Origin: a virus
IMG/VR virus record: IMGVR_UViG_3300032282_001942
Coordinates: 1-22,736 of that record
Length of the DNA: 22,736 bases
Strand: one strand, 5' to 3'
The translations under genes and the position numbers were made by a program. Each line of letters starts with the position of its first letter. Within the stretch, counting starts at the first letter, position 1. Positions 6,406-22,621 of this stretch are shown in pieces. Below the pieces are notes generated by a model that was not told the DNA's origin, did not search any database, and saw only the letters and a list, made by a program, of their open reading frames with translations.

Positions 6406-6414
6406 CTGGTGGCG

Positions 6415-8967
6415 ATGAAAATTTTATATATTACTCCGCATTTGTCAACGGGTGGATGTCCACAATTTTTGTTGAAGAAAATACAGGTTCTGCACAAAGA
6501 CCATGAGATATATTGCATTGAATATGCAGACCACGGTTGTTTTACGGTACAAAAGAACAAAATAAAAGAAATTCTGAGTGATAGATTGATTTCTGTGAAC
6601 TATGATCGCTCAAAAATTGTTGATATAATAAAAGATTTGGACCCTGATGTTGTACATCTGGAAGAAATGCCAGAATATTTCATGGATCATGCAATTGCTC
6701 ACAAGATTTATATCAAAGACAGACGATATAAAATCATCGAAACTTCGCACGACAGCAGTTTCGATCCAAAAACCAAACTGTTCTTTCCGGACAAGTTGAT
6801 ATATGTGAGCAAATATCAAAAAGAAAATCTCAAAGAACTTGATGTGCCGTCTGAAGTATGTGAGTATCCAATTCTCATCAATCCAAGAAAGCCGCGAGAA
6901 GAAGCATTGAGAGTATTGGGTCTTGATCCAAAGAAAAAGCATGTGGTGCATGTTGGATTGTTTACACCAAGAAAAAACCAAAAAGAAATAATTGAGTATG
7001 CCAAGATGCTCAAGGACCATCCAATTCAGTTTCATTTTATTGGCAATCAAGCAGACAATTTTAAAGGATATTGGGAACCGCTCATGAAAGACTTTCCATC
7101 CAATTGCAAATGGTGGAATGAAAGAAAAGATGTAGACAATTTTTATCAAGCCGCTGATTTGTTTCTGTTTGTGTCCAAAGACGAAAACGGAGACAAAGAA
7201 ACCAGTCCATTGGTCATACGTGAAGCAATATCATACAACATACCAACACTGATATACAATTCTCCGGTTTATATGGGAATGTATGACAAGCATGACAATA
7301 TTAAATATCTTGATTATGACAGCAGAAAAGAGAATCTAACCAGAATACTGAAAGCCCTCAACCTATACACAGAAAAATCTATGATTAGTTTCAACGTAAA
7401 ATATGATAATACACAAAACAAGGTAATATTCTCGGCCAATACAACCGTAGACAATTTACTCATCTCTGTGAAAGAACTGGACTCTCGCACTGTGGTGTGG
7501 GCGGTTAACTATCCGCAACTTCCTGCCAATGCGGAATTGTGGATTGTTCCTACTCCAAAGCATGTGATAGATTATGAAACAGATCCTATGTTTGGAGGAC
7601 TGCTCGTTGAGTTTTATCAAAGCGGTACGCTTGTATACTCAAAGAGTATCAGAATAAAGCCAGCCGTTCCAAACAAATACCAATCTGTTCTAAAAAACGA
7701 TACAGAGCCGACGTATATGAATTATATGGAATTCTTTGTTGATAAGATATATGACAAGTATCTGTATGGAAAGACGTTTAACACCGTTGTTGACGTTGGT
7801 GCAAATATTGGCTTGTGGACAGAGTATATAAAGCATACAGCAAAATGCCAAAAAGTGTATTCAGTTGAACCAAATAAAGATGCATTGAAAATATTGAAAA
7901 ATACTTTTGGTAGCGACGTGGTTGTAGTTGAAAAGGCTTTGTCCAATAAGGACGGTCAAATTGAATTCTTTGTGGATAGCAACAATTCAACAGTCTCTTC
8001 CGTAGCCAAGATAAATTTGGCAGATGAAACGTATAAAGTAGATTGTATTTCATTCAAATCTTTTATACAACAGTATGATATCAAAAAAATTGATCTGCTA
8101 AAAGTTGATATTGAGACAGGTGAATATGATCTGCTGGGATCAATGACAGATTCTGACTTGGGAATGATAGATAACATATTGATGGAATATCATCTCATGG
8201 GTGGTAGAACATATGACGTTGACGTTTCAAAGATATTGAATCAGTTGAAAAACGCAGGGTTTTATCTTAGCATCAGAAACATGCATCTGAGTGGAGGGTT
8301 CATTTTTGCAACAAAGGAAGTAGTTACCACAGATAGCAGAAACGCAGATTTGCAAAAAATGCTAGATACATGCGGTTGTCCGGACAAAAGAGAATTGGCA
8401 ACACTGGCGAATACTCTATTTCCGGATGGCAAGGGTGTTGAAATTGGGGTACTTCGGGGAGATTATTCCAAGATAATATTGGAACGTTGGCATGGAGGCC
8501 AATTATATCTAATAGATGCTTGGCGTCATCTTGATAGTTATGTTGATATGAACGGACAGGATGATAAATATCATTATGATTGCTTGATACAAACTTGTGA
8601 AAATATCAAACCTTGGCAAAATCGTGCTCATATTATTCGTATGGACAGTGCCGCCAGTGCCAATATGTTCCCAGATGAACATTTTGACTTTGTTTATATT
8701 GATGCCGATCATTCATATGAAGGAGTCGTGCGTGATATGAAAGCCTGGTGGCCAAAGGTAAAGAAAGGTGGATTGTTCTGCGGAGATGATTATATTCCAG
8801 ACGATGGTGACATTTGGCTCACCATACAAGGAAAAGAACCTGTGTATGCTGGTAAGTTTGGTGTAAGAAGAGCCGTCAACGAGTTTGTGGCCAAGAATGA
8901 CTTGAAGGTATATTCAACCACAAGCGAGCCATATTGGAGACAATGGTATACGTTCAAACCCTTCTAA
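6415..8967 (+). CDS. GT4 glycosyltransferase - FkbM methyltransferase - class I methyltransferase fusion
   Basis: An 850-residue multidomain glycan-modifying enzyme. Residues 1-320 are a GT-B glycosyltransferase of GT4 type (start MKILYITPHLSTGG; HVGLFTPRKNQKE nucleotide-binding strand; then SPLVIREAISYNIPTL, the C-terminal donor-sugar region). Residues 323-420 form a beta-rich module resembling the N-terminus of the gene at 9795. Residues about 430-640 are an FkbM-type SAM methyltransferase (VVDVGANIG with D460; EPN; LLKVDIETGEYDLL), which usually O-methylates sugars. Residues about 655-850 are a second SAM methyltransferase of Methyltransf_24 type (GVEIGVLRGDYSK at 674; YLIDAW; FDFVYIDADHSYEGV; KKGGLFCGDDY). 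I chose ATG 6415; a GTG at 6409 is in frame but lies just after the -10-like box. The next gene follows after 12 bases. Linking sugar transfer to two methylations suggests ordered building of a methylated glycan; the substrate is unknown. Confidence 0.85.
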   Translation: MKILYITPHLSTGGCPQFLLKKIQVLHKDHEIYCIEYADHGCFTVQKNKIKEILSDRLISVNYDRSKIVDIIKDLDPDVVHLEEMPEYFMDHAIAHKIYIKDRRYKIIETSHDSSFDPKTKLFFPDKLIYVSKYQKENLKELDVPSEVCEYPILINPRKPREEALRVLGLDPKKKHVVHVGLFTPRKNQKEIIEYAKMLKDHPIQFHFIGNQADNFKGYWEPLMKDFPSNCKWWNERKDVDNFYQAADLFLFVSKDENGDKETSPLVIREAISYNIPTLIYNSPVYMGMYDKHDNIKYLDYDSRKENLTRILKALNLYTEKSMISFNVKYDNTQNKVIFSANTTVDNLLISVKELDSRTVVWAVNYPQLPANAELWIVPTPKHVIDYETDPMFGGLLVEFYQSGTLVYSKSIRIKPAVPNKYQSVLKNDTEPTYMNYMEFFVDKIYDKYLYGKTFNTVVDVGANIGLWTEYIKHTAKCQKVYSVEPNKDALKILKNTFGSDVVVVEKALSNKDGQIEFFVDSNNSTVSSVAKINLADETYKVDCISFKSFIQQYDIKKIDLLKVDIETGEYDLLGSMTDSDLGMIDNILMEYHLMGGRTYDVDVSKILNQLKNAGFYLSIRNMHLSGGFIFATKEVVTTDSRNADLQKMLDTCGCPDKRELATLANTLFPDGKGVEIGVLRGDYSKIILERWHGGQLYLIDAWRHLDSYVDMNGQDDKYHYDCLIQTCENIKPWQNRAHIIRMDSAASANMFPDEHFDFVYIDADHSYEGVVRDMKAWWPKVKKGGLFCGDDYIPDDGDIWLTIQGKEPVYAGKFGVRRAVNEFVAKNDLKVYSTTSEPYWRQWYTFKPF

Positions 8968-8979
8968 CACAACACAACT

Positions 8980-9798
8980 ATGGTTATATTTCTATACAGC
9001 GATAAGAACTGCGAATATCAAGCAATCTCTTGCATCAAGTCTTTGACACACAAAATAACAGACGATGTAAAGATTCTATATTATACCATTGGGTTTGACA
9101 GCAGTTTTGAATTCAAGAACTTGCACAAAGTCAAGATTGACTATCGACCACAATATCCAACCTTCCACTTCTACAAGGCTGAGTTGTCTTTACTTACAAT
9201 GCAGATGTTCCCAAATGATTATTATCTGTTCACCGACACTGATGTATTGTTTTCGCGTAATTTCAACTTTGCGGATCACAAATACAACGAGTCATATCCC
9301 ATCGCAAGTTATGGACCGCATGAATTTCCATTCATTTGGCAGGAAATAAATGGAGTTAAAATTATATTCAACGAACAAAAGTTGATGATGTATCATGGTG
9401 TTGCGAACAGAAGCATGAGATATTGTTGGTCTTGTTTTTATGCCTTCAATCCAAACTGCAAGGATTTCTTTGAAGAATATACATCGATGTGCCAGAATAA
9501 ATATTTGTTGGATCGCCGTAGAGATTATTTGCCATATGCTGACGAGACCGCGTTCAATGTTTGTTTATGGAAAAGAAGTGCAACCAAGAATTTAAAACAG
9601 GCATTTGTAAATACTCATCTAATTGAGACAGTAAAATCTGTTGAAGAACGAAAGGCAAAAAATACGGTATTCACAAACAGCTTTGATGCTTATGGCTCAA
9701 GTTGGGAGATGGTAGAAGACCCAGATCAAGTGTTGCTGTATCATGGATTTAAAGATGCGCAAGAAACCACCGAAACACTAGAGTATCTTTTGCAATGA
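8980..9798 (+). CDS. Small GT-A glycosyltransferase with DxD motif
   Basis: A 272-residue protein of GT-A fold, resembling GT8-like and related nucleotide-sugar transferases. The first strand (VIFLYSDKNCEYQAISCIKSL) is typical of such N-termini. YYLFTDTDVLFSRN supplies the metal-binding D86-T-D88. YADETAFN (D188-E189) is the usual acidic site facing the acceptor, and LLYHGFKD near the C-terminus supplies a late His seen as a metal ligand in GT8 enzymes. No membrane segment is visible, so it should be cytosolic. It sits 12 bases after the triple fusion, and its stop overlaps the next start by 4 bases (ATGA), indicating translational coupling within the cassette. The donor sugar and acceptor cannot be read from the sequence. 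Confidence 0.75.
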   Translation: MVIFLYSDKNCEYQAISCIKSLTHKITDDVKILYYTIGFDSSFEFKNLHKVKIDYRPQYPTFHFYKAELSLLTMQMFPNDYYLFTDTDVLFSRNFNFADHKYNESYPIASYGPHEFPFIWQEINGVKIIFNEQKLMMYHGVANRSMRYCWSCFYAFNPNCKDFFEEYTSMCQNKYLLDRRRDYLPYADETAFNVCLWKRSATKNLKQAFVNTHLIETVKSVEERKAKNTVFTNSFDAYGSSWEMVEDPDQVLLYHGFKDAQETTETLEYLLQ

Positions 9799-10709
9799 AA
9801 CCGTTTGATATAGCGATAGATAAAATCAATCCGGTTTTGTACATTACCCACCAGTTGGACATTGTTGAAAAATACACAATATCCATTGGAGATTTGTTTG
9901 CGGACTGTGTTTACTATATATGGTCTCAAGACTTTTCCCCGTTGGACAGGTTGTGGGTTTGTCCTTTCTCCGACAGAATGAACGAGGTTATAAAAGGAAA
10001 CCCAAATTTTCCGGGGTTTGTTGTAAAAGTATACAACAAAGACATGAGACTTATACAAGTTGAAAAAATGGTGATAAATAAAAACGTCAAACGTTTCACA
10101 AGTACATTCCAATCTGGTCAATTTGATGCAACTGGTCCATCTTATGCAGATTTCTTTTATGGAGATTTGTGTAAAGATTTTGACGTTTCGGGCGTGGTTG
10201 TTGATGCAGGTGCTAATGTTGGATTTTTTACATTATACGCCAAATACTTTGGTGCAAGAAAAATATATAGCATAGAACCAGATCCACTACCTTTCTTTTT
10301 TTTAGATAGGAATTTTGGGCAAGAGTCAAACATAACACTGTTGAACAAGGGTATGAACACATCCGATGCTGGTATGGATATAAATCTATCACTTGGTGCA
10401 TCAGTTGGTACAAGTGAGTTTTTGGTGACTCCAAATTCTATGAAAATGCACATACCAACTGTGTGCATCGATTCTATACTAAGTATAGAAGATAATATAA
10501 ACTTATTAAAACTTGACATCGAGGGAACAGAGTTTAAAGTTTTGGAAAATTTAAATCAATCACACTTTGATAAAATAAACCAATTCTTCATTGAGTTTCA
10601 CTTCGACCCCAAACCCATTGCATCAAAGTTGATGAGCGGTGGATACAAGGTAGAATACAGACATTCAACGGAAAATGATACGGTGGGATTCATATACGCA
10701 ACCAAATAA
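9795..10709 (+). CDS. FkbM-family SAM-dependent methyltransferase
   Basis: A 304-residue protein. Residues 1-100 are a beta-rich module with no enzyme motifs that resembles residues 323-420 of the fusion gene at 6415 (both keep ISI/ISV, LWV/LWI followed by P, and F-G/P-G-hydrophobic-V-E/K). Residues about 110-304 are the FkbM fold: VVVDAGANVGFFTLY (D137, G139, N141, G143) binds SAM, IYSIEPDP follows, and LLKLDIEGTEFKVLENL (D241, E243, G244) is the family's second signature. FkbM proteins typically O-methylate sugars or small molecules. It overlaps the preceding glycosyltransferase by 4 bases. A run of eight T at 10296-10303 lies in the coding frame, but conserved motifs continue in the same frame on both sides. 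Confidence 0.85.
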   Translation: MKPFDIAIDKINPVLYITHQLDIVEKYTISIGDLFADCVYYIWSQDFSPLDRLWVCPFSDRMNEVIKGNPNFPGFVVKVYNKDMRLIQVEKMVINKNVKRFTSTFQSGQFDATGPSYADFFYGDLCKDFDVSGVVVDAGANVGFFTLYAKYFGARKIYSIEPDPLPFFFLDRNFGQESNITLLNKGMNTSDAGMDINLSLGASVGTSEFLVTPNSMKMHIPTVCIDSILSIEDNINLLKLDIEGTEFKVLENLNQSHFDKINQFFIEFHFDPKPIASKLMSGGYKVEYRHSTENDTVGFIYATK

Positions 10710-10749
10710 AAATTATAAAATAAAATATTATGATGCAGAAATATCTGAC

Positions 10750-10779
10750 TTGACATTATGCAAAATTTTAAATATATAC
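10750..10779 (+). promoter_or_regulatory. Candidate promoter in the longest intergenic gap
   Basis: The 80-base gap 10710-10789, the longest in the window, is very AT-rich. It contains TTGACA (10750-10755), a 17-base spacer, and TATATA (10773-10778), which is inside the recurring TATATAC (10773-10779). The hexamer spacing is ideal for a sigma70 promoter and the start codon is 10 bases downstream, so the leader would be very short. Confidence 0.45.
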
Positions 10780-10789
10780 ACTGACAACA

Positions 10790-12925
10790 ATGAAAATAAT
10801 CAACATCACACCCGGTCTTATATCAATTCCACCAAATGGGTGGGGGGCAATTGAAAAAATTATTTGGGATTATCATATTGAATTGAACAAGTTGAACATA
10901 CGTAATGAGATAAAATATCTCAATGATGTTAAATATGACGAAAGTATAGTTGTGCATGTACACGTGGCAAACTTGGCCAACATGCTGCATGAGCGGGGTG
11001 TTCCATATATCTTCACTATTCATGATCATCATGCTTTTTTATATGGTAAAGACTCACAGGTGTATACAGAAAATCTAAAGGCAATTGAAAACAGTGTGTT
11101 TTCATTGTCGCCATGCAAGTTTTTGATACCATATTTTAACAGTAAAAAGTTGCGATACTTTTCTCATGCTGTAAATACAGATACTTTTGCCTACAAGCCA
11201 AGAGAAATGAGCAGTAAGCCTCAGTTGTTGTGTGTAGCCAACAATGGATATGCCAATGACCAAAGCAAAGATCGTAAGGGTTTTGCTATTGCAATTCAAG
11301 CGGCCAAGCGTTTGGGATTGCCGCTGACGATTGCTGGTCCACGCAACAATGACAATTTCTTCAAGACGCTTGATCCTGAACTCAACAACTATGAGCAACT
11401 GACCAAGATATATGACTTGGATGAAAAGTCGCTTATTGAATTGTATAACAGCCACGACATCTTTTTACACTTCTCTGAACTAGAAGCCGGTCATCCCAAT
11501 CTTACATTATTGGAAGCAATGGCTTGTGGTCTGCCGGTGGTGGGAACATTTGAAGAAAAAAAATATAAAGGTATGGTGGTTACTTCACGCGATGTATCCG
11601 AGGCAATCCGGTGCATCGAAGCAGTGATATTGAATTACAGAACATACAGATATGCCGCTTTGGAAAATGCCAAAGAAAATTCGTACAGCAACAGAGTGCA
11701 TGATTTGGCAAAACTATACAGCGAATATCGTGAATGTATTTTTGGTAATCAATTGATTGAAAATTACAACAACACAAACGTGACATACAAAGAACCAAAA
11801 CAGCCAGAAAACAAAATTAAAATAACTTTTGACGATGGTGCCAAGGCGGATATAACAGGACCGGTTAATAAAAAGTATAAAATCAAGTTTGTTGATTTTC
11901 ATTCTGGTCTTGTGTTATACGAAACACAAATCAGCAATAATATGTGGGCAACAACCGCAACCAAGTATTTCAACAAATGGGTGGTTGAAGTATATGACAT
12001 CACGGATGGATATGATCTGCTTGTGGAAAAGCACACTTTTGATCCAAAAAACAAAAAGGTTAAAATTGTATTGGACAGTGAAAGTTTGGGAGATTTGCTG
12101 GCGTGGATTGGTGCGGTTGATGAGTTCCAAAAGAAACATGAATGTATCATGGAATGTGCGGTATTCAATAAAGTATTGCGTCCGATGTTTGAGAAGAACT
12201 ATCCAAACATAAAGTTTTTGGGGGTTGATGTATATGCCGATCCATATTATGCCAAATACAAGATTGGTTGTTTTGATAGTGGCGATTTTCTAAATCACAT
12301 TCCAAGCGATCCTCGTTTATTAAATCTCTGTTCTATTGCCACAAGCATATTGGGCTTGACCAATGTAGAATATAAACCAAAGATCACTTTTGACGCCAAC
12401 AAGTATAAGAATATAAAGAAGAAATATGTTTGCATTGCCGTTCAAAGCACGTGCCAATCAAAATACTGGAACAACAAAACTGGTTGGAATACCGTGGTTG
12501 ATTATCTCAATCGCAATGGTTATGAAGTCTGGTGTATTGACCGCCACAGCAGTTTTGGCGTATCCAACAGCATGAATTATATGCCAGCGGGCTGTGTGGA
12601 CAAGACAGGCGACTTCTCGTTGGATGAGCGCATGGCTCAAATAGCAGGAGCTGAATTCTTCATTGGATTAAGTTCTGGATTGAGTTGGCTGGCATGGGCT
12701 GTAGACAAGCCCGTGGTTATGATCAGCGGATTCACCAAGAAACTCAATGAGTTCCAAACTCCATACAGAGTAATCAACGAAAATGTGTGCAATGGCTGTT
12801 GGAATGATACATCATGTAAGTTTGATCGAGGTAACTGGTTCTGGTGTCCTCGCAACAAAAACTTTGAGTGTTCCAAGGAAATATCCGCCGACATGGTATT
12901 GAAACAAGTCGAAAAATTGATATAA
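10790..12925 (+). CDS. GT4 glycosyltransferase fused to autotransporter-type heptosyltransferase (TibC/BAHT-like)
   Basis: A 711-residue two-enzyme chain. Residues 1-320 are a GT4 glycosyltransferase: a glycine-rich N-terminal loop (PPNGWGAIEKIIWDY), TIHDHH, and ELEAGHPNLTLLEAMACGLPVV with the E-x7-E type motif (E230/E232 to E242). Residues about 335-425 are a beta module ending MWATTATKYFNKWVVEVYD. Residues about 425-711 resemble bacterial autotransporter heptosyltransferases such as TibC: KVKIVLDSESLGDLLAWIG, the GT9-like FIGLSSGLSWLAWA loop (626-639), and a C-terminal cluster C667-x2-C670-x15-C686-x7-C694 (plus C676) like the iron-finger cysteines of that family. Those enzymes O-heptosylate Ser residues of autotransporter adhesins. 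Whether the phage enzyme modifies host or virion protein is unknown. A promoter-like sequence precedes the gene. Confidence 0.82.
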   Translation: MKIINITPGLISIPPNGWGAIEKIIWDYHIELNKLNIRNEIKYLNDVKYDESIVVHVHVANLANMLHERGVPYIFTIHDHHAFLYGKDSQVYTENLKAIENSVFSLSPCKFLIPYFNSKKLRYFSHAVNTDTFAYKPREMSSKPQLLCVANNGYANDQSKDRKGFAIAIQAAKRLGLPLTIAGPRNNDNFFKTLDPELNNYEQLTKIYDLDEKSLIELYNSHDIFLHFSELEAGHPNLTLLEAMACGLPVVGTFEEKKYKGMVVTSRDVSEAIRCIEAVILNYRTYRYAALENAKENSYSNRVHDLAKLYSEYRECIFGNQLIENYNNTNVTYKEPKQPENKIKITFDDGAKADITGPVNKKYKIKFVDFHSGLVLYETQISNNMWATTATKYFNKWVVEVYDITDGYDLLVEKHTFDPKNKKVKIVLDSESLGDLLAWIGAVDEFQKKHECIMECAVFNKVLRPMFEKNYPNIKFLGVDVYADPYYAKYKIGCFDSGDFLNHIPSDPRLLNLCSIATSILGLTNVEYKPKITFDANKYKNIKKKYVCIAVQSTCQSKYWNNKTGWNTVVDYLNRNGYEVWCIDRHSSFGVSNSMNYMPAGCVDKTGDFSLDERMAQIAGAEFFIGLSSGLSWLAWAVDKPVVMISGFTKKLNEFQTPYRVINENVCNGCWNDTSCKFDRGNWFWCPRNKNFECSKEISADMVLKQVEKLI

Positions 12926-12951: not shown

Positions 12952-15900
12952 ATGGACATTTCTATAAAAAATCTAAAAAAGTATATTTTTGAGCCAAAAA
13001 CAGAGTCACTGCGTCTAAAAAGGGCCAATGAAATACTAAGTCAGAACATGGTCATCACCGAAAAGGTGGATGGAACAAAACTGACATTGGTACGTACACA
13101 ACAAGTTGATAAAGTAGATTATACCAAAAATTGGGTTGTGGCATACAAAGGAACTGTATTGTATGCCAAAGAGTTTGCTCATTTGGGTTCACAAGAAAAA
13201 GGTGACATATCTCAATACTCAGTTGGTATTGGTCAATACTCCATGATATTTGATCATTTGTCCAAGATAAACGACAAGATCGCCGGCATTCCAAAGAACA
13301 CCGAGTTTAGTGTGGAGTTTGCTCAAAACAAAGACACTTTGACTCGCACATATGTTAACAAGGGTGGTATGTTTTTGAGAAGTTATGGTGAAGTGCAATA
13401 TCGTGTAGTTGGTGGAGATTTGCATACAATTCCAAAACAAGAAATCACCGACTATCCACAAGTAAAAAAGATGGCAGACTTGTTGGAAATATCAGCATTT
13501 CCAATTTTCTTTCAAGGAAAACTTAGCAAGGAAAATCTAACAAAGAATCCGTTGTTTGGTTCAAAACTAACAAGCGTTGATTGGAGTAATCCGATGGACG
13601 TTGTAACCAAGTTCTCGGATGCTATTCTTGCCGTTCCATCTACACTGGGTGGCACAACCGAAGGTGTAGTAATGAAGTTGGCCAATGGAGAATTTTTCAA
13701 GTTGGTACAAGCTGATCAATATGATGCCGAAGTGCGTGGAGCAAAGAAGGACATGTATAAGCTTGATCCAGAAGATGCCACGGCATACTTTCAACAAATC
13801 AGATCATTGATTCAAAATATTTTTACTGCCATTGGCACAGAAGGAAAGTCTGAAGAAGATGTTATTTCCGATTCCAATTTTTACATCGTCAAGAACGGTG
13901 CCAAGCTAAAGAAGTTCTTTGATGCTCTACAAAAAATTGCAGGCAACAAAAAGAATATTGTTCAAATCAAAGATGACATTCACGACACCATTCGTTTGAT
14001 GACATCAAAGCAAGGTTTGTTGGGAACAACTGGAAAAACTATTGCTCTTATTCCGATTGCTGGCAAGCCGTTGCACATTGGCCACTGGAAATTAATAGAA
14101 AAAGCAGCCAATGAAAATGACCGAGTGATTGTTTACACATCATCTTCTGACAGAATAAAGAAGGGTGAGTTTCCTATCAAGGGTGATGACTTTGTGAAAC
14201 TATGGAGCGATGTGTTTATTCCTGCGTTGCCAAAAAATGTAAAAGTAAAATTTGTGGATTCTCCGGTTCGTTCGGTTATGCATGAACTTGGATGGTTGGA
14301 ACAAAGATTGACTCAAGATGCCGTAGCTATGCCAACCATAAGTTTGTATTCTGATAAAGACGACGTTGAAACAAACTTCAAAGACGAAGATTTGAAAAAG
14401 TATCCAGAATTGTTGGCCGCAAATAAAATCAAAAAAGTTGGTGTTGAAAGAACTGCCACAGTGAATGTAAGTGGCACAAAAATGCGTGAATTTTTGATGA
14501 ACAATGATAAAGAATCATTCTTGAAAAATCTTCCACCGGTCGGCAACAAAGACAAAGAAGAAATTTGGAATACTCTCGTAGCAAACAAGCCAGAGCCGGT
14601 AGCAGAAGTTAATCCATATGCTGCTTTGGCCGAAGAATTGATACAAGCCGAAACAGAGTTATTTAGTGAAGGTGGTTGGCGATCTACTGCTACACAATCA
14701 ACTATTATAACTCCAAAAAAAGTATCAAATATTTTGAGTGCAATGGATAAATTTGTTTCAGAATTCAATGCATATTCAAATCTTCCTCCAATAGAATCCA
14801 ATGGACCTGTTGGTTCGGCAATGTATTATAAACAAGATTTGGAAAAAGATGGTGTAGAATATGGTGATATAGATATTCAAATTGTATTACCAGAAGAAAC
14901 TAATGATAGAACATCACAACTGACATCTAATAAAAAATATTCAGAAAAGATTATCCAATTTATTCAAGAAAAAAAACCAAGTTATATATATCCAAACTTT
15001 CAAGATAAAGACTTTGGTACAGGATACTTGATATTTGATGTTGGTGGAGAAAAAATTCAAGTTGATTTGGTTTTGTCATATAAAGTATCAGCAGAATGGA
15101 CAAAAATTAGAACAACTCCGGAAAAAGGACTAAAAGGATTTGTTACTGGAAATTTATTGAGTGCATTATCCGATGCTCTCAATGTTGTGTTGGGATCAAA
15201 CACCAATCCGTATGTAAATACGATAGATGGTAAGGTTGCGTCATCTCTGATTAAAACAAACACAAAGCCTGTGTTCTTTAATCCAAATCAAGTATTTTTG
15301 GATATATTGAAGTTTTATGGCAATCTTGCCGGTGTTTCAAAAGTAAATTCATCAGTATTACAAGGTCATTATGGATTGGATGTAAATGATCCATCATTAA
15401 AGAAAAAATGCGAAACCGTGGTTGCTTTGAGTAAAGCACTTGACAATAACAGAGCATTTGATAAAGGAGTTGTTGTATCAAAGAATGGAACAACATTTAA
15501 ATCCAGAGAAGAATTTGTAAAATATGTGCTAGATACATTCATAAAAAATATGAAATCAGCAAGCACTGCAAAAAAATTAGAAAAAGCAGAAACACCAGAA
15601 GCTATGAAAAATATTGAAAAGATAAAACGTGACGCAAATCTTGGTATAGAACTAGCCAAGCAACTAATCAGAGAAGAAATTGAATTATTGACCGAGTCTG
15701 GTCAATCGGTTGCCGCTGTAGATGACAAAACGTCAAAGACCGTAAATGGTCAACCAGCCCAAGCTACTACTAAACTCAAGATTGTTGATCCACAAGGGAA
15801 AGACATTCGTTCCGCTGTGTCTGGTGATGTGAAAGAACTTGTTTATGCTTTGAATGATAAAGTTCATTTTTGGAAGAAGAACAATCCATATATTGAAAAC

Positions 15901-16869
15901 GGATTTGTGTTCAACGGCAGTTCTCAATATCTAATGAGCGGAGATGCAAAGTACAAAGATTTGGCAAAATACAAATCTGGATTTGGTGACATTGATGTTA
16001 TTGTTCCAAAAGAAAAATTGGATGCCATGGAAGCATATTTGGACAGTATTGATGACAAGCAAGTTGAATGGAAAGCAACACCAAAGAACAAAGTTTCAAA
16101 GAATTTTTATTATGTTGGTCGCACCAAGAATCAACGCGCTTTGGCCGGTCAAACTGTCACATTGTGGTATTATGCACCAGTTAAACAAGTTGTTCAGATT
16201 GACTTTGAAGGAGACGAAATGACATTGGACCCACAAGGATTTGAAAAGCCATCTGAATGGAACAAGTTTATCAAAGACTCTCCTTGGCAAGATTTGACCA
16301 CTGGAATCAAGGGGTTGGCGGGAGCTATTTTGCTGCGTGGTCTGACACGAGCAGCAACCGCATTACCAAATGCTGTGTATGTAACAAACGCAACTGCCAC
16401 CAAGATACAATCCGGTCAGTTGAAGAGTTTGGTTGATGCCAAAGGAAAGAGTGTTGTATCAGCCAATGCTACACACGCTCTTCCGGCAGAATATACACTC
16501 AATACAAGTGGTTCTGGTCATGCCGGTATTCGTAAGGCATATAGCCTTGTGGCCAAGAACATGGACTATCAAGGTAAAAAAGTGGATGTTTATACCGACA
16601 TTGCTGCCAGCGAAAGCAAACCGGAAGATCGTATCAACAGCGTAAATAAAGTATTTGAGCTTATTTTCAAGCGCAAGCCAAGTGGTCAAGATATTGAAAA
16701 CTTTAGAAGTTATGTTGGATTGCTGACACTCATGAAGACTCTACCAAAAGATGTTCAAGTAAAAGCACTGGAAAGAGCCAAAGAAGGTCTTGCTCAAGCG
16801 GGGTTGGAACCAGCAGAATATGCTCCAATTCAAAAAGCGGCTAAAACTATATTGGGAATATCCATATAA
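12952..16869 (+). CDS. Four-domain nucleotidyltransferase: ligase-like, NMNAT-like and two Pol-beta-like domains
   Basis: A 1305-residue chain, starting at ATG 12952. Residues about 1-300 are a covalent nucleotidyltransferase of the RNA/DNA ligase group: motif I EK38-V-D-G with K38 the likely AMP-lysine, motif III-like E122 (FSVEFAQ), motif IV EGVVMK (237-242), motif V K250. Residues about 360-540 are a HIGH-type nucleotidylyltransferase related to NMN or cytidylyl transferases (H375-I-G-H378; VSGTKMR 506-512). Residues about 580-895 are a Pol-beta-like domain (G621-S622; D639-I-D641; D705). Residues about 930-1305 are a second (G989-S990; D1013-I-D1015; D1084), sharing an E-W and G-L/I-KG stretch after the third Asp. 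Two similar helical linkers (559-575, 901-917) separate domains 2/3 and 3/4. All four active sites look intact. Likely roles are RNA or DNA end repair or nucleotide modification; the substrate is unknown. Confidence 0.8.
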   Translation: MDISIKNLKKYIFEPKTESLRLKRANEILSQNMVITEKVDGTKLTLVRTQQVDKVDYTKNWVVAYKGTVLYAKEFAHLGSQEKGDISQYSVGIGQYSMIFDHLSKINDKIAGIPKNTEFSVEFAQNKDTLTRTYVNKGGMFLRSYGEVQYRVVGGDLHTIPKQEITDYPQVKKMADLLEISAFPIFFQGKLSKENLTKNPLFGSKLTSVDWSNPMDVVTKFSDAILAVPSTLGGTTEGVVMKLANGEFFKLVQADQYDAEVRGAKKDMYKLDPEDATAYFQQIRSLIQNIFTAIGTEGKSEEDVISDSNFYIVKNGAKLKKFFDALQKIAGNKKNIVQIKDDIHDTIRLMTSKQGLLGTTGKTIALIPIAGKPLHIGHWKLIEKAANENDRVIVYTSSSDRIKKGEFPIKGDDFVKLWSDVFIPALPKNVKVKFVDSPVRSVMHELGWLEQRLTQDAVAMPTISLYSDKDDVETNFKDEDLKKYPELLAANKIKKVGVERTATVNVSGTKMREFLMNNDKESFLKNLPPVGNKDKEEIWNTLVANKPEPVAEVNPYAALAEELIQAETELFSEGGWRSTATQSTIITPKKVSNILSAMDKFVSEFNAYSNLPPIESNGPVGSAMYYKQDLEKDGVEYGDIDIQIVLPEETNDRTSQLTSNKKYSEKIIQFIQEKKPSYIYPNFQDKDFGTGYLIFDVGGEKIQVDLVLSYKVSAEWTKIRTTPEKGLKGFVTGNLLSALSDALNVVLGSNTNPYVNTIDGKVASSLIKTNTKPVFFNPNQVFLDILKFYGNLAGVSKVNSSVLQGHYGLDVNDPSLKKKCETVVALSKALDNNRAFDKGVVVSKNGTTFKSREEFVKYVLDTFIKNMKSASTAKKLEKAETPEAMKNIEKIKRDANLGIELAKQLIREEIELLTESGQSVAAVDDKTSKTVNGQPAQATTKLKIVDPQGKDIRSAVSGDVKELVYALNDKVHFWKKNNPYIENGFVFNGSSQYLMSGDAKYKDLAKYKSGFGDIDVIVPKEKLDAMEAYLDSIDDKQVEWKATPKNKVSKNFYYVGRTKNQRALAGQTVTLWYYAPVKQVVQIDFEGDEMTLDPQGFEKPSEWNKFIKDSPWQDLTTGIKGLAGAILLRGLTRAATALPNAVYVTNATATKIQSGQLKSLVDAKGKSVVSANATHALPAEYTLNTSGSGHAGIRKAYSLVAKNMDYQGKKVDVYTDIAASESKPEDRINSVNKVFELIFKRKPSGQDIENFRSYVGLLTLMKTLPKDVQVKALERAKEGLAQAGLEPAEYAPIQKAAKTILGISI
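14626..14676 (+). repeat. Inter-domain helical linker, copy 1
   Basis: Encodes residues 559-575 of the four-domain protein (LAEELIQAETELFSEGG). It aligns with copy 2 at 9 of 17 positions and separates the NMNAT-like domain from the first Pol-beta-like domain. It is amphipathic and acidic. Confidence 0.5.
15652..15702 (+). repeat. Inter-domain helical linker, copy 2
   Basis: Encodes residues 901-917 (LAKQLIREEIELLTESG) between the two Pol-beta-like domains. Its DNA contains CAACTAATCAGAGAA (15661-15675), which is repeated exactly at 22650-22664 at the beginning of the last gene, where it encodes the same QLIRE residues. Confidence 0.55.
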
Positions 16870-16927: not shown

Positions 16928-17548
16928 ATGAAAAACAGTGAAATTATACAACATTATTTGGATGGAACTCGTCCTTATGTAAAAGTGGGATATACCGGTG
17001 ACAAAGACAAGTATATCATACGCAAAATTGGTGAAACTTGGAAAGATTCAGATGGTAGACAATGGATAGAAAAAGAATCAGGTCCACAAACTGTCACTCG
17101 CGTCATGGACATTATTCGCGAAGAAATGAATGAAAAATGTTCATGTTGCAAGAGAGAAATTCGTTGGGGAACAAAACAGGATCGTAAAATGTATTTCAAG
17201 ACCAAGAAATGTTTTGATTGTTTGATTGAAGAAGAAACACAACTGCGTCTCAAAGGACAGTTCAAGTTGTATGAAACCAAGAAACTATTAGAAAACGAAC
17301 TTGCTTATTTGAATGATATAAAGCAGAAACTCAAAGAAAGCAGAGAGTATCTCGCATCAGACGGATCAAAGAAATTAACATATGTAAATTCCAATGGATT
17401 TGTTGAAGAATGGGACAACAATGTGCGTGCTGAACTGACTATAAGTGTTGAAAAGGATTGGAAAACCTGTCTGAAGAAAATCAAAGAAGGTCAAAAGGAG
17501 TTAAAGAAAATCAACAATGAAATTGACTCAGTTCTTACCACAGGCTGA
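16928..17548 (+). CDS. Zinc-finger / coiled-coil protein of unknown function
   Basis: A 206-residue protein, not recognised as a named family. The first 65 residues are a compact mixed domain rich in Tyr, Lys and Trp. A probable zinc site follows: C71-S-C-C74 and C95-F-D-C98, with a basic stretch between. Residues about 100-205 are strongly helical and charged, consistent with coiled coil (many Lys/Glu and regular Leu). It lies two genes before the large terminase. In T4, gp16 (small terminase, about 164 residues, coiled coil) is directly before gp17, so this protein could supply a DNA-recognition function for packaging, but no sequence motif proves that. A clear AAAAGG site precedes the ATG. 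Its end overlaps the next gene by 32 bases. Confidence 0.7.
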   Translation: MKNSEIIQHYLDGTRPYVKVGYTGDKDKYIIRKIGETWKDSDGRQWIEKESGPQTVTRVMDIIREEMNEKCSCCKREIRWGTKQDRKMYFKTKKCFDCLIEEETQLRLKGQFKLYETKKLLENELAYLNDIKQKLKESREYLASDGSKKLTYVNSNGFVEEWDNNVRAELTISVEKDWKTCLKKIKEGQKELKKINNEIDSVLTTG

Positions 17549-17900
17549 TATAATCGAAGGATTGGCTATCAGAGTAAAAAATAGATATCCAGAAAAGGGT
17601 ATGTGTGAGTTTATTGCCAAAGATCTGGTCAAAGAACTAAAAAGCCGTGGTATAAATGCCAAGCATGTAGAAGGAAATTTTACATTGGACGAGCCAGCAG
17701 CATATCAATTCATAAGTCCATTGGACGAAGTGAATGATGAATACTCCATAGATCACGATTGGGCAGAAGTGGAGGGTGTGATTATTGATCCATCAGCAAC
17801 TCAATTTAGAAAATATGTGTATGATGAAATACCAAATATAGTAATGGCAAATCACACACATCCTTTATATACAAAATACGAACCACATAATTATGTCTAA
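17517..17900 (+). CDS. Small putative papain-like / transglutaminase-like Cys-His-Asp protein
   Basis: A 127-residue protein with a motif order typical of the papain/NlpC/transglutaminase-like fold: C30 at the start of a helix (GMCEFIAKDLVKELKSRG), H80 in HDWAEVEGVIIDPSATQF, and D91 following a hydrophobic strand. The H-x-W-x-E-V...I-I-D-P arrangement is the usual His-Asp part of such sites. It could be a peptidase, an amidase acting on peptidoglycan or an acyltransferase; there is no signal peptide, so it would act in the cytoplasm or be carried in the virion. AAGGAG (17495-17500) inside the upstream gene is 16 bases from this ATG, which is long for a ribosome site. The last 8 bases overlap the terminase start (ATGTCTAA), so the two are probably translationally coupled. 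Confidence 0.6.
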   Translation: MKLTQFLPQADIIEGLAIRVKNRYPEKGMCEFIAKDLVKELKSRGINAKHVEGNFTLDEPAAYQFISPLDEVNDEYSIDHDWAEVEGVIIDPSATQFRKYVYDEIPNIVMANHTHPLYTKYEPHNYV

Positions 17901-21722: not shown

Positions 21723-21735
21723 ATATTTATAAATA
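21723..21735 (+). promoter_or_regulatory. Candidate T4-type late promoter
   Basis: ATATTTAT (21723-21730) overlaps TATAAATA (21728-21735), which is exactly the T4 late-promoter -10 sequence. It lies in the 49-base gap, 10 bases before the ATG at 21746. In T4 this box is recognised by the gp55 sigma factor with gp33 and the gp45 clamp. Those genes are not in this window. Confidence 0.5.
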
Positions 21736-21745
21736 ATAAAACTGT

Positions 21746-22621
21746 ATGAAGAAGATGAAACACTCTAAGTATAAGAATGCTGGAATACTATTTGAACTGT
21801 TGGTACGCCAGGTTACCGCCGACATTCTTAACGGTCGGGAGGATTCAAAAGCCAACGCAATATTGCGTGATTATTTTTCAGAATCTACTGAACTTGGCAG
21901 AGAAAATAGATTGTATCGTATTATAATGGAAGACAGAACCAAGGATCAAACTTCTGCCGATAGACTACTTGAACAAATTATTCGCACCAGAACAAAGTTG
22001 GATGAACGCGCATTAAATTTACAAAAGTATAATTTGATAAAAGAAATTCGTGAAAACTATCCATTGGATGATTTTCTCAACGGTAGTATTTCAAACTATA
22101 AATTACTTGCTAGTATTTATAAAGTATTTGAAGAAAGTGTAAATTCGGTTGATTGTGATCCTCGTGAAATTTTTAAAGCTCGTACATGTATTGTAGAAAG
22201 CATTGCTGCACCAAAAACACCAACTCGTTTGGTTAGTGAAGATGAAAAGAAAGATTTGGTCAAAATATATCAGCAACAAAATGAAGATGTTCGTTTGCTT
22301 GCTTATAAATTGCTTGTTGATTCATTCAATGAAAAATATAAAGGATTGGATGAAAAGCAAAAAATTCTTATTCGCGAATATATCAATAATATCAGCAACA
22401 CAAACTCGTTGCGTCAATATATCAATAATGAAGTTCCAATTGTTCGCAAAGAAATCAATGAACTCAAATCATATGTGAACAATGATGTTGTTCGCATCAA
22501 ATTGGATGAAACATTAAATCAACTAGACAAGATATCCAAGGGTACCTTGGTCAAAGAAAATCAAATCATGGCTCTAATGTTGAGTTATGAGCTTGTAAAA
22601 GAACTTAAAAACCTAAAATAA
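21746..22621 (+). CDS. Helical protein following the portal; function unknown
   Basis: A 291-residue protein, nearly all predicted alpha helix, rich in Lys, Glu, Asn and Leu, with no signal peptide, membrane segment or catalytic motif. The N-terminus has a basic start, then AGILFELLVRQVTADIL. The C-terminal half (about 180-290) has long charged helices that may form coiled coil. In T4 the genes after the portal (gp20) encode head-assembly proteins: gp67/gp68, the gp21 protease, the gp22 scaffold and the gp23 capsid protein. No Ser-protease motif is seen, so it is not an obvious gp21. A core or scaffold role is an inference from position only. A TATAAATA box precedes it. Confidence 0.7.
   Translation: MKKMKHSKYKNAGILFELLVRQVTADILNGREDSKANAILRDYFSESTELGRENRLYRIIMEDRTKDQTSADRLLEQIIRTRTKLDERALNLQKYNLIKEIRENYPLDDFLNGSISNYKLLASIYKVFEESVNSVDCDPREIFKARTCIVESIAAPKTPTRLVSEDEKKDLVKIYQQQNEDVRLLAYKLLVDSFNEKYKGLDEKQKILIREYINNISNTNSLRQYINNEVPIVRKEINELKSYVNNDVVRIKLDETLNQLDKISKGTLVKENQIMALMLSYELVKELKNLK

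Follow-up and report, generated by a model that had tools for sequence, protein, structure and literature searches.

What does a single phage protein with four nucleotidyl-transfer active sites do, and how would it be deployed during infection? This question is raised by a 22,736-nucleotide stretch of viral DNA (IMG/VR record IMGVR_UViG_3300032282_001942, positions 1 to 22,736; hereafter the window), in which a frame of 1305 residues runs uninterrupted from the ATG at 12952 to the stop at 16867-16869. A sequence-only reading of the window had reported ligase, HIGH and two Pol-beta motifs in this one frame, and K38-V-D-G, E237GVVMK, H375IGH and both DxD motifs are located where it placed them. 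The analysis below suggests that the frame encodes a head-cargo polyprotein that would be cut in the prohead and ejected for RNA repair, a reading to which, as a whole, a probability of roughly 0.52 is assigned. Its parts are named RNL-NT (Rnl2-like RNA ligase and HIGH-type nucleotidyltransferase), PB1 and PB2 (Pol-beta-like domains), and a slash marks each candidate cleavage point.

12952..16869, + strand: whole polyprotein gene, 1305 amino acids plus stop
12952..14001, + strand: RNL, residues 1-350, Rnl2-like covalent nucleotidyltransferase and helical C-terminal part (K38 VDG; E237 GVVMK; K250)
14032..14595, + strand: NT, residues 361-548, HIGH-superfamily nucleotidyltransferase (H375IGH; S507GTKMR)
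14596..14670, + strand: linker 1, residues 549-573, faster evolving, ending in the site LFSE/GG; possible former targeting leader
14671..15621, + strand: PB1, residues 574-890, Pol-beta-like nucleotidyltransferase (GS 621-622, D639, D641, D705)
15622..15696, + strand: linker 2, residues 891-915, amphipathic stretch AKQLIREEIELLTE, ending in the site LLTE/SG
15697..16866, + strand: PB2, residues 916-1305, second Pol-beta-like nucleotidyltransferase (G989 S990, D1013, D1015, D1084; PHROG 19290)

A scan of IMG/VR with the window protein returned 19 loci, 6 of them cut by contig ends; 13 match residues 1-1305, and 12 of these 13 are full-length, with 86-93% identity in the best segment. An assembly join of separate genes, the artifact against which the sequence-only reading had cautioned, is ruled out by this full-length recurrence. 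Because 12 other contigs carry the whole frame, the fusion is real, and the presence of four domains fused in one chain is near certain. Ratios of nonsynonymous to synonymous substitution rates (dN/dS) against six relatives lie at 0.05-0.13 in the computable domain pairs, with one exception at 0.26 (PB1 against L055) and with several dS values saturated; purifying selection acts on the domains. The corresponding values are 0.12-0.63 for linker 1 and 0.08-1.20 for linker 2. The thirteenth matching locus, L018 (2028-5159), carries a 1044-residue variant of the polyprotein, seen in this contig alone, that has lost most of PB1 by an in-frame deletion; PB1 may thus be dispensable.

The folds expected from the motifs were recovered by structure prediction of residues 1-560 and 573-1305, which gave Rnl2- and NadD-type folds in the first model and a Pol-beta fold matched over PB1 in the second. 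The AlphaFold model of residues 1-560 has a mean predicted local distance difference test score (pLDDT) of 91.1 and matches T4 Rnl2 (Foldseek E 3.5e-8) and the Naegleria RNA ligase (Z 12.1, 184 aligned residues, 3.4 A). Across 38 aligned RNL sequences, K38, D40, G41, E237, G238 and K250 are invariant; the KxDG lysine, the EG of motif IV, the motif V lysine and the Rnl fold, which mark Rnl2-type enzymes, are thus all present. Pfam RNA_ligase scores E 4.2e-4 and 20.9 bits, below its cut-off of 27, and residues 1-349 found no match by sequence among solved structures. By fold and motifs the domain is closest to Rnl2-type RNA ligases, and ligase activity is predicted. A scan of bacterial and archaeal genomes with the 38-row RNL-NT alignment, of limited sensitivity, yielded 167 pattern hits, none of which was confirmed as a relative.

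The following domain has the HxGH and SGT/SSTxxR motifs of the HIGH superfamily in a Rossmann-like domain. H378 and S507 are invariant across 38 aligned sequences, and distant relatives carry T-x-x-H-like variants of the HIGH motif in which the last His is retained. NadD superimposes with Z 12.7 (152 aligned residues, 3.0 A), NadD, PPAT and NMNAT match about equally well (Z 11.9-12.7), and ATP sulfurylases are also high among the Foldseek matches; the fold therefore does not single out a substrate.

PB1 displays the GS motif, DxD, third Asp and palm fold of Pol-beta-like enzymes, with D639 and D641 invariant in 5 aligned sequences. In the AlphaFold model of residues 573-1305 (mean pLDDT 84.3) it superimposes on DNA polymerase beta with Z 10.6 (182 aligned residues, 3.5 A; VIA-align). 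PB2 is assigned to the same group by its GS, DxD and third Asp motifs; G989, S990, D1013, D1015 and D1084 are identical in all gap-free rows (66 or 67 of 68). The list of solved folds for this two-domain model (VIA-align) is taken up by matches of PB1, and PB2, whose palm fold is putative, is linked to PB1 by profile comparison, hhalign giving a probability of 91.9 and E 6.9e-7 for one pair and E 0.085 with a shallow alignment. A sequence search of solved structures with the PB2 alignment gave no match. An uncultured-phage protein of 1096 residues named ParB/Sulfiredoxin (BFVD A0A6J5TD12) aligns with the second model at 27% identity over 343 columns and may be a further multidomain phage protein with a PB1 domain.

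The pattern [LIVFM]xE[AGST] has exactly two matches in the 1305 residues, against about 5.8 expected at the rate of the proteins of G001, a 297-kb relative, and both lie at joints: E573/GG before PB1 and E915/SG before PB2, the latter within a segment with model pLDDT below 50 (residues 910-926). Neither site is lost in any of 9 aligned rows, made up of the window and 8 relatives, and a site is found at every joint held in 25 of 25 fused or partly fused proteins, the window included and some near-identical. E-GGW precedes PB1 in all 35 sequences in which the PB1 start is present, again counting the window, and all 65 PB2 rows without a gap there share the Gly of window position 917. On this pattern of conservation, the joints look like prohead-protease sites.

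Separate genes for RNL-NT and PB2 are found in Vibrio phages (Va1, phiKT1024) and Campylobacter phages (CPt10, CP220, IBB_35); in IBB_35 they encode the ligase protein AEI88202 and the PB2 protein AEF56792, in which FILE precedes GGN. Two PHROG families of unknown function, 27149 and 19290, cover the RNL-NT and PB2 parts, respectively. Three further IMG/VR scans and domain searches over reading frames, with identical frames removed, yielded a series of fused and split forms. Fifteen other proteins are complete with all four domains, and four more (L056, L061, L110, L114) are complete ligase-NT-PB2 chains that lack PB1. At 25 loci PB2 and ligase-NT are encoded by separate genes, which at 12 of these stand immediately next to each other with PB2 first; a further 15 loci have PB1 but none of the other three domains. 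Among these 15, L156 joins PB1 to a GH19 lysozyme domain (Pfam), and in L152 a GNAT acetyltransferase domain lies ahead of PB1. A C-terminal extension is joined to PB1 via a stretch like LTSTLTE/G in L156 and L164-L167, the extensions of L164-L167 being similar by eye; judged from sequence, this joint is possibly another case of cargo cut by a head protease. Paired tandem PB2-like genes, each starting M-GGN, occur in L087 (5725-7934) and L133 (4752-6461). Directly after ligase-NT, L083 (9443-10867) and L085 (9473-10873) carry a gene of about 470 codons with a leader-like start (SFTQYILE/A in L083), the L083 product having no Pfam match.

In T4, a capsid-targeting sequence (CTS) of about 10 residues directs cargo into the prohead, with residues 4 and 7 in targeting and residues 8 and 10 in processing (PMC9026906); gp21 trims the internal proteins and Alt (PMC9958956), and the head proteases of T4 and of giant phages cut after Glu (PMC5694885, PMC10052503). 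The 37 split PB2 rows comprise 16 whose leader ends in xxE/GG, 19 that start directly with M-GGN, one truncated row and one that combines both forms. By the methionine-aminopeptidase rule, applied to the M-GGN starts, leader cutting at xxE/GG and an M-GGN start would give the same GGN start. Leaders of the ligase domain resemble those of the Pol-beta-like domains, ending for example in LIFE/AAN, FLTE/AKD or YLNE/GKE; the motif lies within 14 residues before the RNL domain in 22 of 40 non-redundant sequences, compared with 4.1% of 16-residue windows (binomial 2e-20, which treats related sequences as independent). The pattern F/Y-x-x-F/Y-hydrophobic, the form of the T4 CTS targeting positions, is present in 13 of 22 RNL and 6 of 13 PB2 leaders, compared with a rate of 3.5% in random 20-residue windows. 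Glu-spaced hydrophobic residues occur in 11 of 12 PB1, 11 of 22 RNL and 1 of 13 PB2 leaders against 0.7% of random windows; the leader lists were compiled by hand, solely from sequences with the site, so that the P1 counts hold by construction. The joint sites, the CTS-like leaders on stand-alone relatives and the separate RNL-NT and PB2 genes all go beyond what the sequence-only reading had described.

A T4-type head protease is present in 14 of 18 records searched, and the same 14 hold a T4-type major head protein; the other 4, possibly fragments, yielded neither at E 0.001. The protease alone does not discriminate, because the leaderless Vibrio phage Va1 is among the 14. At the presumed maturation site of the head proteins, placed by the maturation region of the T4 head protein, the motif is found in 13 of 14, the last one reading LNE/N. 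The G001 head-protein site, AKQLIDE/A, is much like linker 2 of the window, AKQLIREEIELLTE/S. A leader with a cleavage-like site, accompanied by a T4-type protease and head protein, is found in many, not all, relatives. The window protein itself has no N-terminal leader; its internal linkers end in the cut motif, mostly without CTS spacing.

Based on these data, a model can be proposed in which the amphipathic linkers would act as capsid-targeting sequences that bring the polyprotein into the prohead, where the T4-type prohead protease would cut after Glu at E573/GG and E915/SG. Cutting would free RNL-NT, PB1 and PB2 within the head, and the freed enzymes would be ejected together with the phage DNA. 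In the host, the Pol-beta-like enzymes would restore nucleotides lost from cut RNA, and the ligase would adenylate and join the RNA ends. HIGH enzymes transfer adenosine monophosphate (AMP) or another nucleoside monophosphate to a phosphate group; the HIGH domain would do so to an acceptor that is speculative, perhaps a 5'-phosphate RNA end or nicotinamide mononucleotide (NMN). Head packaging and cutting are judged probable.

A number of observations weigh against this model. With regard to the sites, motif matches outside the joints occur in most fused relatives, up to six in L056; further matches lie upstream of the maturation site in most head proteins, where the site was chosen by eye. With regard to the leaders, leaderless split PB2 rows outnumber those with a leader, no leader precedes RNL-NT in the fused four-domain class, and Vibrio phages with the protease are leaderless on both genes. 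F/Y-x-x-F/Y-hydrophobic is absent from all 12 PB1 leaders and present in one of the 16 fused linkers, and Glu-spaced hydrophobics occur in only 2 of those 16; many stand-alone genes thus resemble the T4 CTS well in their leaders, and the linkers of the window protein do so weakly. At the N-termini of G001 proteins the motif is unenriched in the head/tail region (10/80, against 9/80 and 13/80 internally) and only slightly enriched overall (32/250, against 22 and 24). The T4-type late promoter string TATAAATA, present 6 times in the window against 1.5 expected, does not occur just upstream of the polyprotein gene. Finally, the main texts on CP220 and IBB_35 do not show RNL-NT, PB1 or PB2 in virions, the 38-protein list of IBB_35 lying in its supplement, and the 11 named bands of the CP220 gel include neither the PB2 gene product CPT_0100 nor the ligase CPT_0026 (tag inferred from gp026).

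Given head packaging and cutting, RNA repair is the likely purpose. It is favored because the ligase is Rnl2-like, some loci include a kinase or phosphoesterase, and in the Vibrio phages these genes share their stretch with one for a CCA-adding/polyA polymerase; of the functions put forward by the sequence-only reading, RNA end healing is accordingly the best-supported. Bacterial Pnkp systems bring kinase, phosphoesterase, nucleotidyltransferase and ligase together as a full end-healing set. By motif, a P-loop kinase lies between, beside or fused to the genes in 6 of 37 split-type loci, and a metallophosphoesterase-like gene lies within 4 kb in 9 of 37, a weaker sign of RNA repair than the kinases; the 31 loci without a kinase and the 28 without a metallophosphoesterase count against it. 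Pfam assigns two of three such kinases to AAA_33, both with the same type of leader; for the fused kinase of L064 it gives a weak AAA_19 match only. In jumbo phages, RlaP enzymes are proposed to replace the nucleotides that RloC and similar nucleases remove (PMC7824862), and PB1 and PB2 could do the same, but the window protein has no match to the RlaP family PF10127 at E up to 1. With moderate confidence, the substrate would be RNA, probably transfer RNA (tRNA). Defense-system models matched none of four proteins at E up to 0.1.

G001 also encodes a separate RNA-repair set at 100-120 kb (L029), consisting of RlaP (PF10127, 1.6e-16), a T4-Rnl1-type ligase (PF09511), a transfer-messenger RNA (tmRNA) and a macro-like protein (PHROG 335; Pfam Macro below cut-off). 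It is adjoined by 29 tRNA genes (L028), of a genome total of 36 tRNAs plus a tmRNA. Because G001 has these separate components, a packaged set would come on top of one that is expressed.

A first alternative is an uncut, unpackaged cytoplasmic RNA-repair fusion, with E/GG as a structural feature starting each Pol-beta-like domain. In its favor, the Va1 and phiKT1024 genes are leaderless, 19 of 37 split PB2 rows begin M-GGN, and the G001-wide leader test was negative. However, the M-GGN genes are without the Glu, so the fold does not need it, and one general leader form stands on unrelated ligase and Pol-beta domains, with the motif recurring in the head protein. Such a fusion is considered unlikely. 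A packaged set could alternatively serve DNA, with PB1 and PB2 filling gaps and the ligase sealing nicks in the phage genome as it enters. DNA polymerases beta, mu and lambda are the best VIA-align matches of PB1 (Z 9.8-10.6), which also speaks against an RNA substrate, and the lysozyme fused to PB1 in L156 is possibly an entry-phase enzyme. Foldseek, however, lists only two matches at E <=0.001 for residues 573-1305, both the human RNA uridylyltransferase TUT7 (best 4.8e-4, with poor superposition), followed by DNA polymerase beta at E 0.005; RNA ligases are closest to the ligase, and kinase or CCA-adding genes accompany some split relatives. DNA gap repair is rated as a rival slightly less likely still.

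The least favored alternative, with only a small chance of being correct, is that the protein, mainly through its HIGH domain, produces or modifies a small nucleotide, either a nicotinamide adenine dinucleotide (NAD)-type compound or a messenger. The resemblance to NadD, PPAT and NMNAT is consistent with this, as are the match of the HIGH domain to PHROG 3462, nicotinamide-nucleotide adenylyltransferase (E 4.3e-5), and that to Pfam Pantoate_ligase, which at 21.4 bits barely exceeds its cut-off of 20.7 and covers only 38 residues around the HIGH motif (357-394). NCBIfam panC, by comparison, reaches 22 bits against a cut-off of 213, and NMNAT models all fall below their curated NCBIfam cut-offs (nadR 18 bits against 341; two other models listed also below). 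An RNA ligase accompanies the HIGH domain in the loci found, a weak argument against this function since these were mostly sought via the ligase or Pol-beta domains. For the NAD or messenger product that the sequence-only reading had also offered, nothing positive emerged beyond the generic HIGH fold.

The proposed head-cargo polyprotein recalls several known systems. T4 Alt and IPI-III are packaged in the head, targeted by a CTS and cut by gp21, and are enzymes or inhibitors meant for the host cell; the likeness lies in the short Glu-ended N-terminal leader on many stand-alone relatives and in the protease and head protein of 14 of 18 records. Unlike these proteins, the window has several enzymes in one chain, with the putative targeting and cutting elements internal. 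Polyvalent proteins (PMC5512222, Iyer et al. 2017) are phage proteins of several domains for which packaging and injection have been suggested, as proposed here, and include GNAT and lysozyme domains, both of which are found beside PB1. That paper describes cutting by a built-in metallopeptidase, whereas here the head protease is the likely cutter. The window protein shows no peptidase family at E up to 1. A Pol-beta nucleotidyltransferase is listed there only for conjugative elements, and RNA ligases appear, in the passage considered, only with regard to 2H domains. Jumbo-phage sets of RlaP and an ATP-grasp RNA ligase (PMC7824862) likewise place a Pol-beta nucleotidyltransferase beside an RNA ligase, but the window protein lacks the PF10127 match. 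PHROG 27149 and 19290, known families with no function, are here linked to each other, to PB1 and, putatively, to head packaging. The titles and abstract openings returned by searches of open-access papers gave no head-packaged RNA ligase, and in the one paper with both "RNA ligase" and "capsid targeting sequence" the two terms are unrelated; the combination of CTS cargo, polyvalent proteins and phage RNA repair was not found in print by these searches, each kind being known.

Several neighboring genes deserve mention. After the polyprotein gene, as in G001, comes a gene for a protein with a Cys-rich zinc-ribbon-like block (16928-17548, +), and beside the terminase gene lies one for a 127-residue protein (17517-17900, +) with a leader-like start, MKLTQFLPQADIIE/G. 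By eye, the Cys, His and Asp blocks of the latter recall papain-like or transglutaminase-like enzymes; no Pfam match was found at E up to 0.01. The region before the polyprotein gene (6409-12925) contains genes for glycosyltransferases and methyltransferases, and similar ones are found downstream of that gene in G001 (L037), which suggests a mobile or rearranged block. Two overlapping copies of TATAAATA stand at 21724-21735, just before a gene at 21746.

In the usual picture, phage RNA repair is made after infection. Tentatively, and with the balance slightly against it, T4-related phages may employ the protease that matures their capsid to process a polyprotein as well, and inject an RNA-repair kit that is ready for use, so that host tRNA cleavage would be reversible before phage expression. 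If true, a kit arriving with the DNA would act at once on the damage of anticodon nucleases, and the head protease would do the job of the polyprotein proteases of other viruses. The proposal assigns a role that can be tested to two functionally uncharacterized PHROG families with members in cultured Vibrio and Campylobacter phages, and the leader rule, if it holds, would be a simple way to seek other injected enzymes in T4-type phages.

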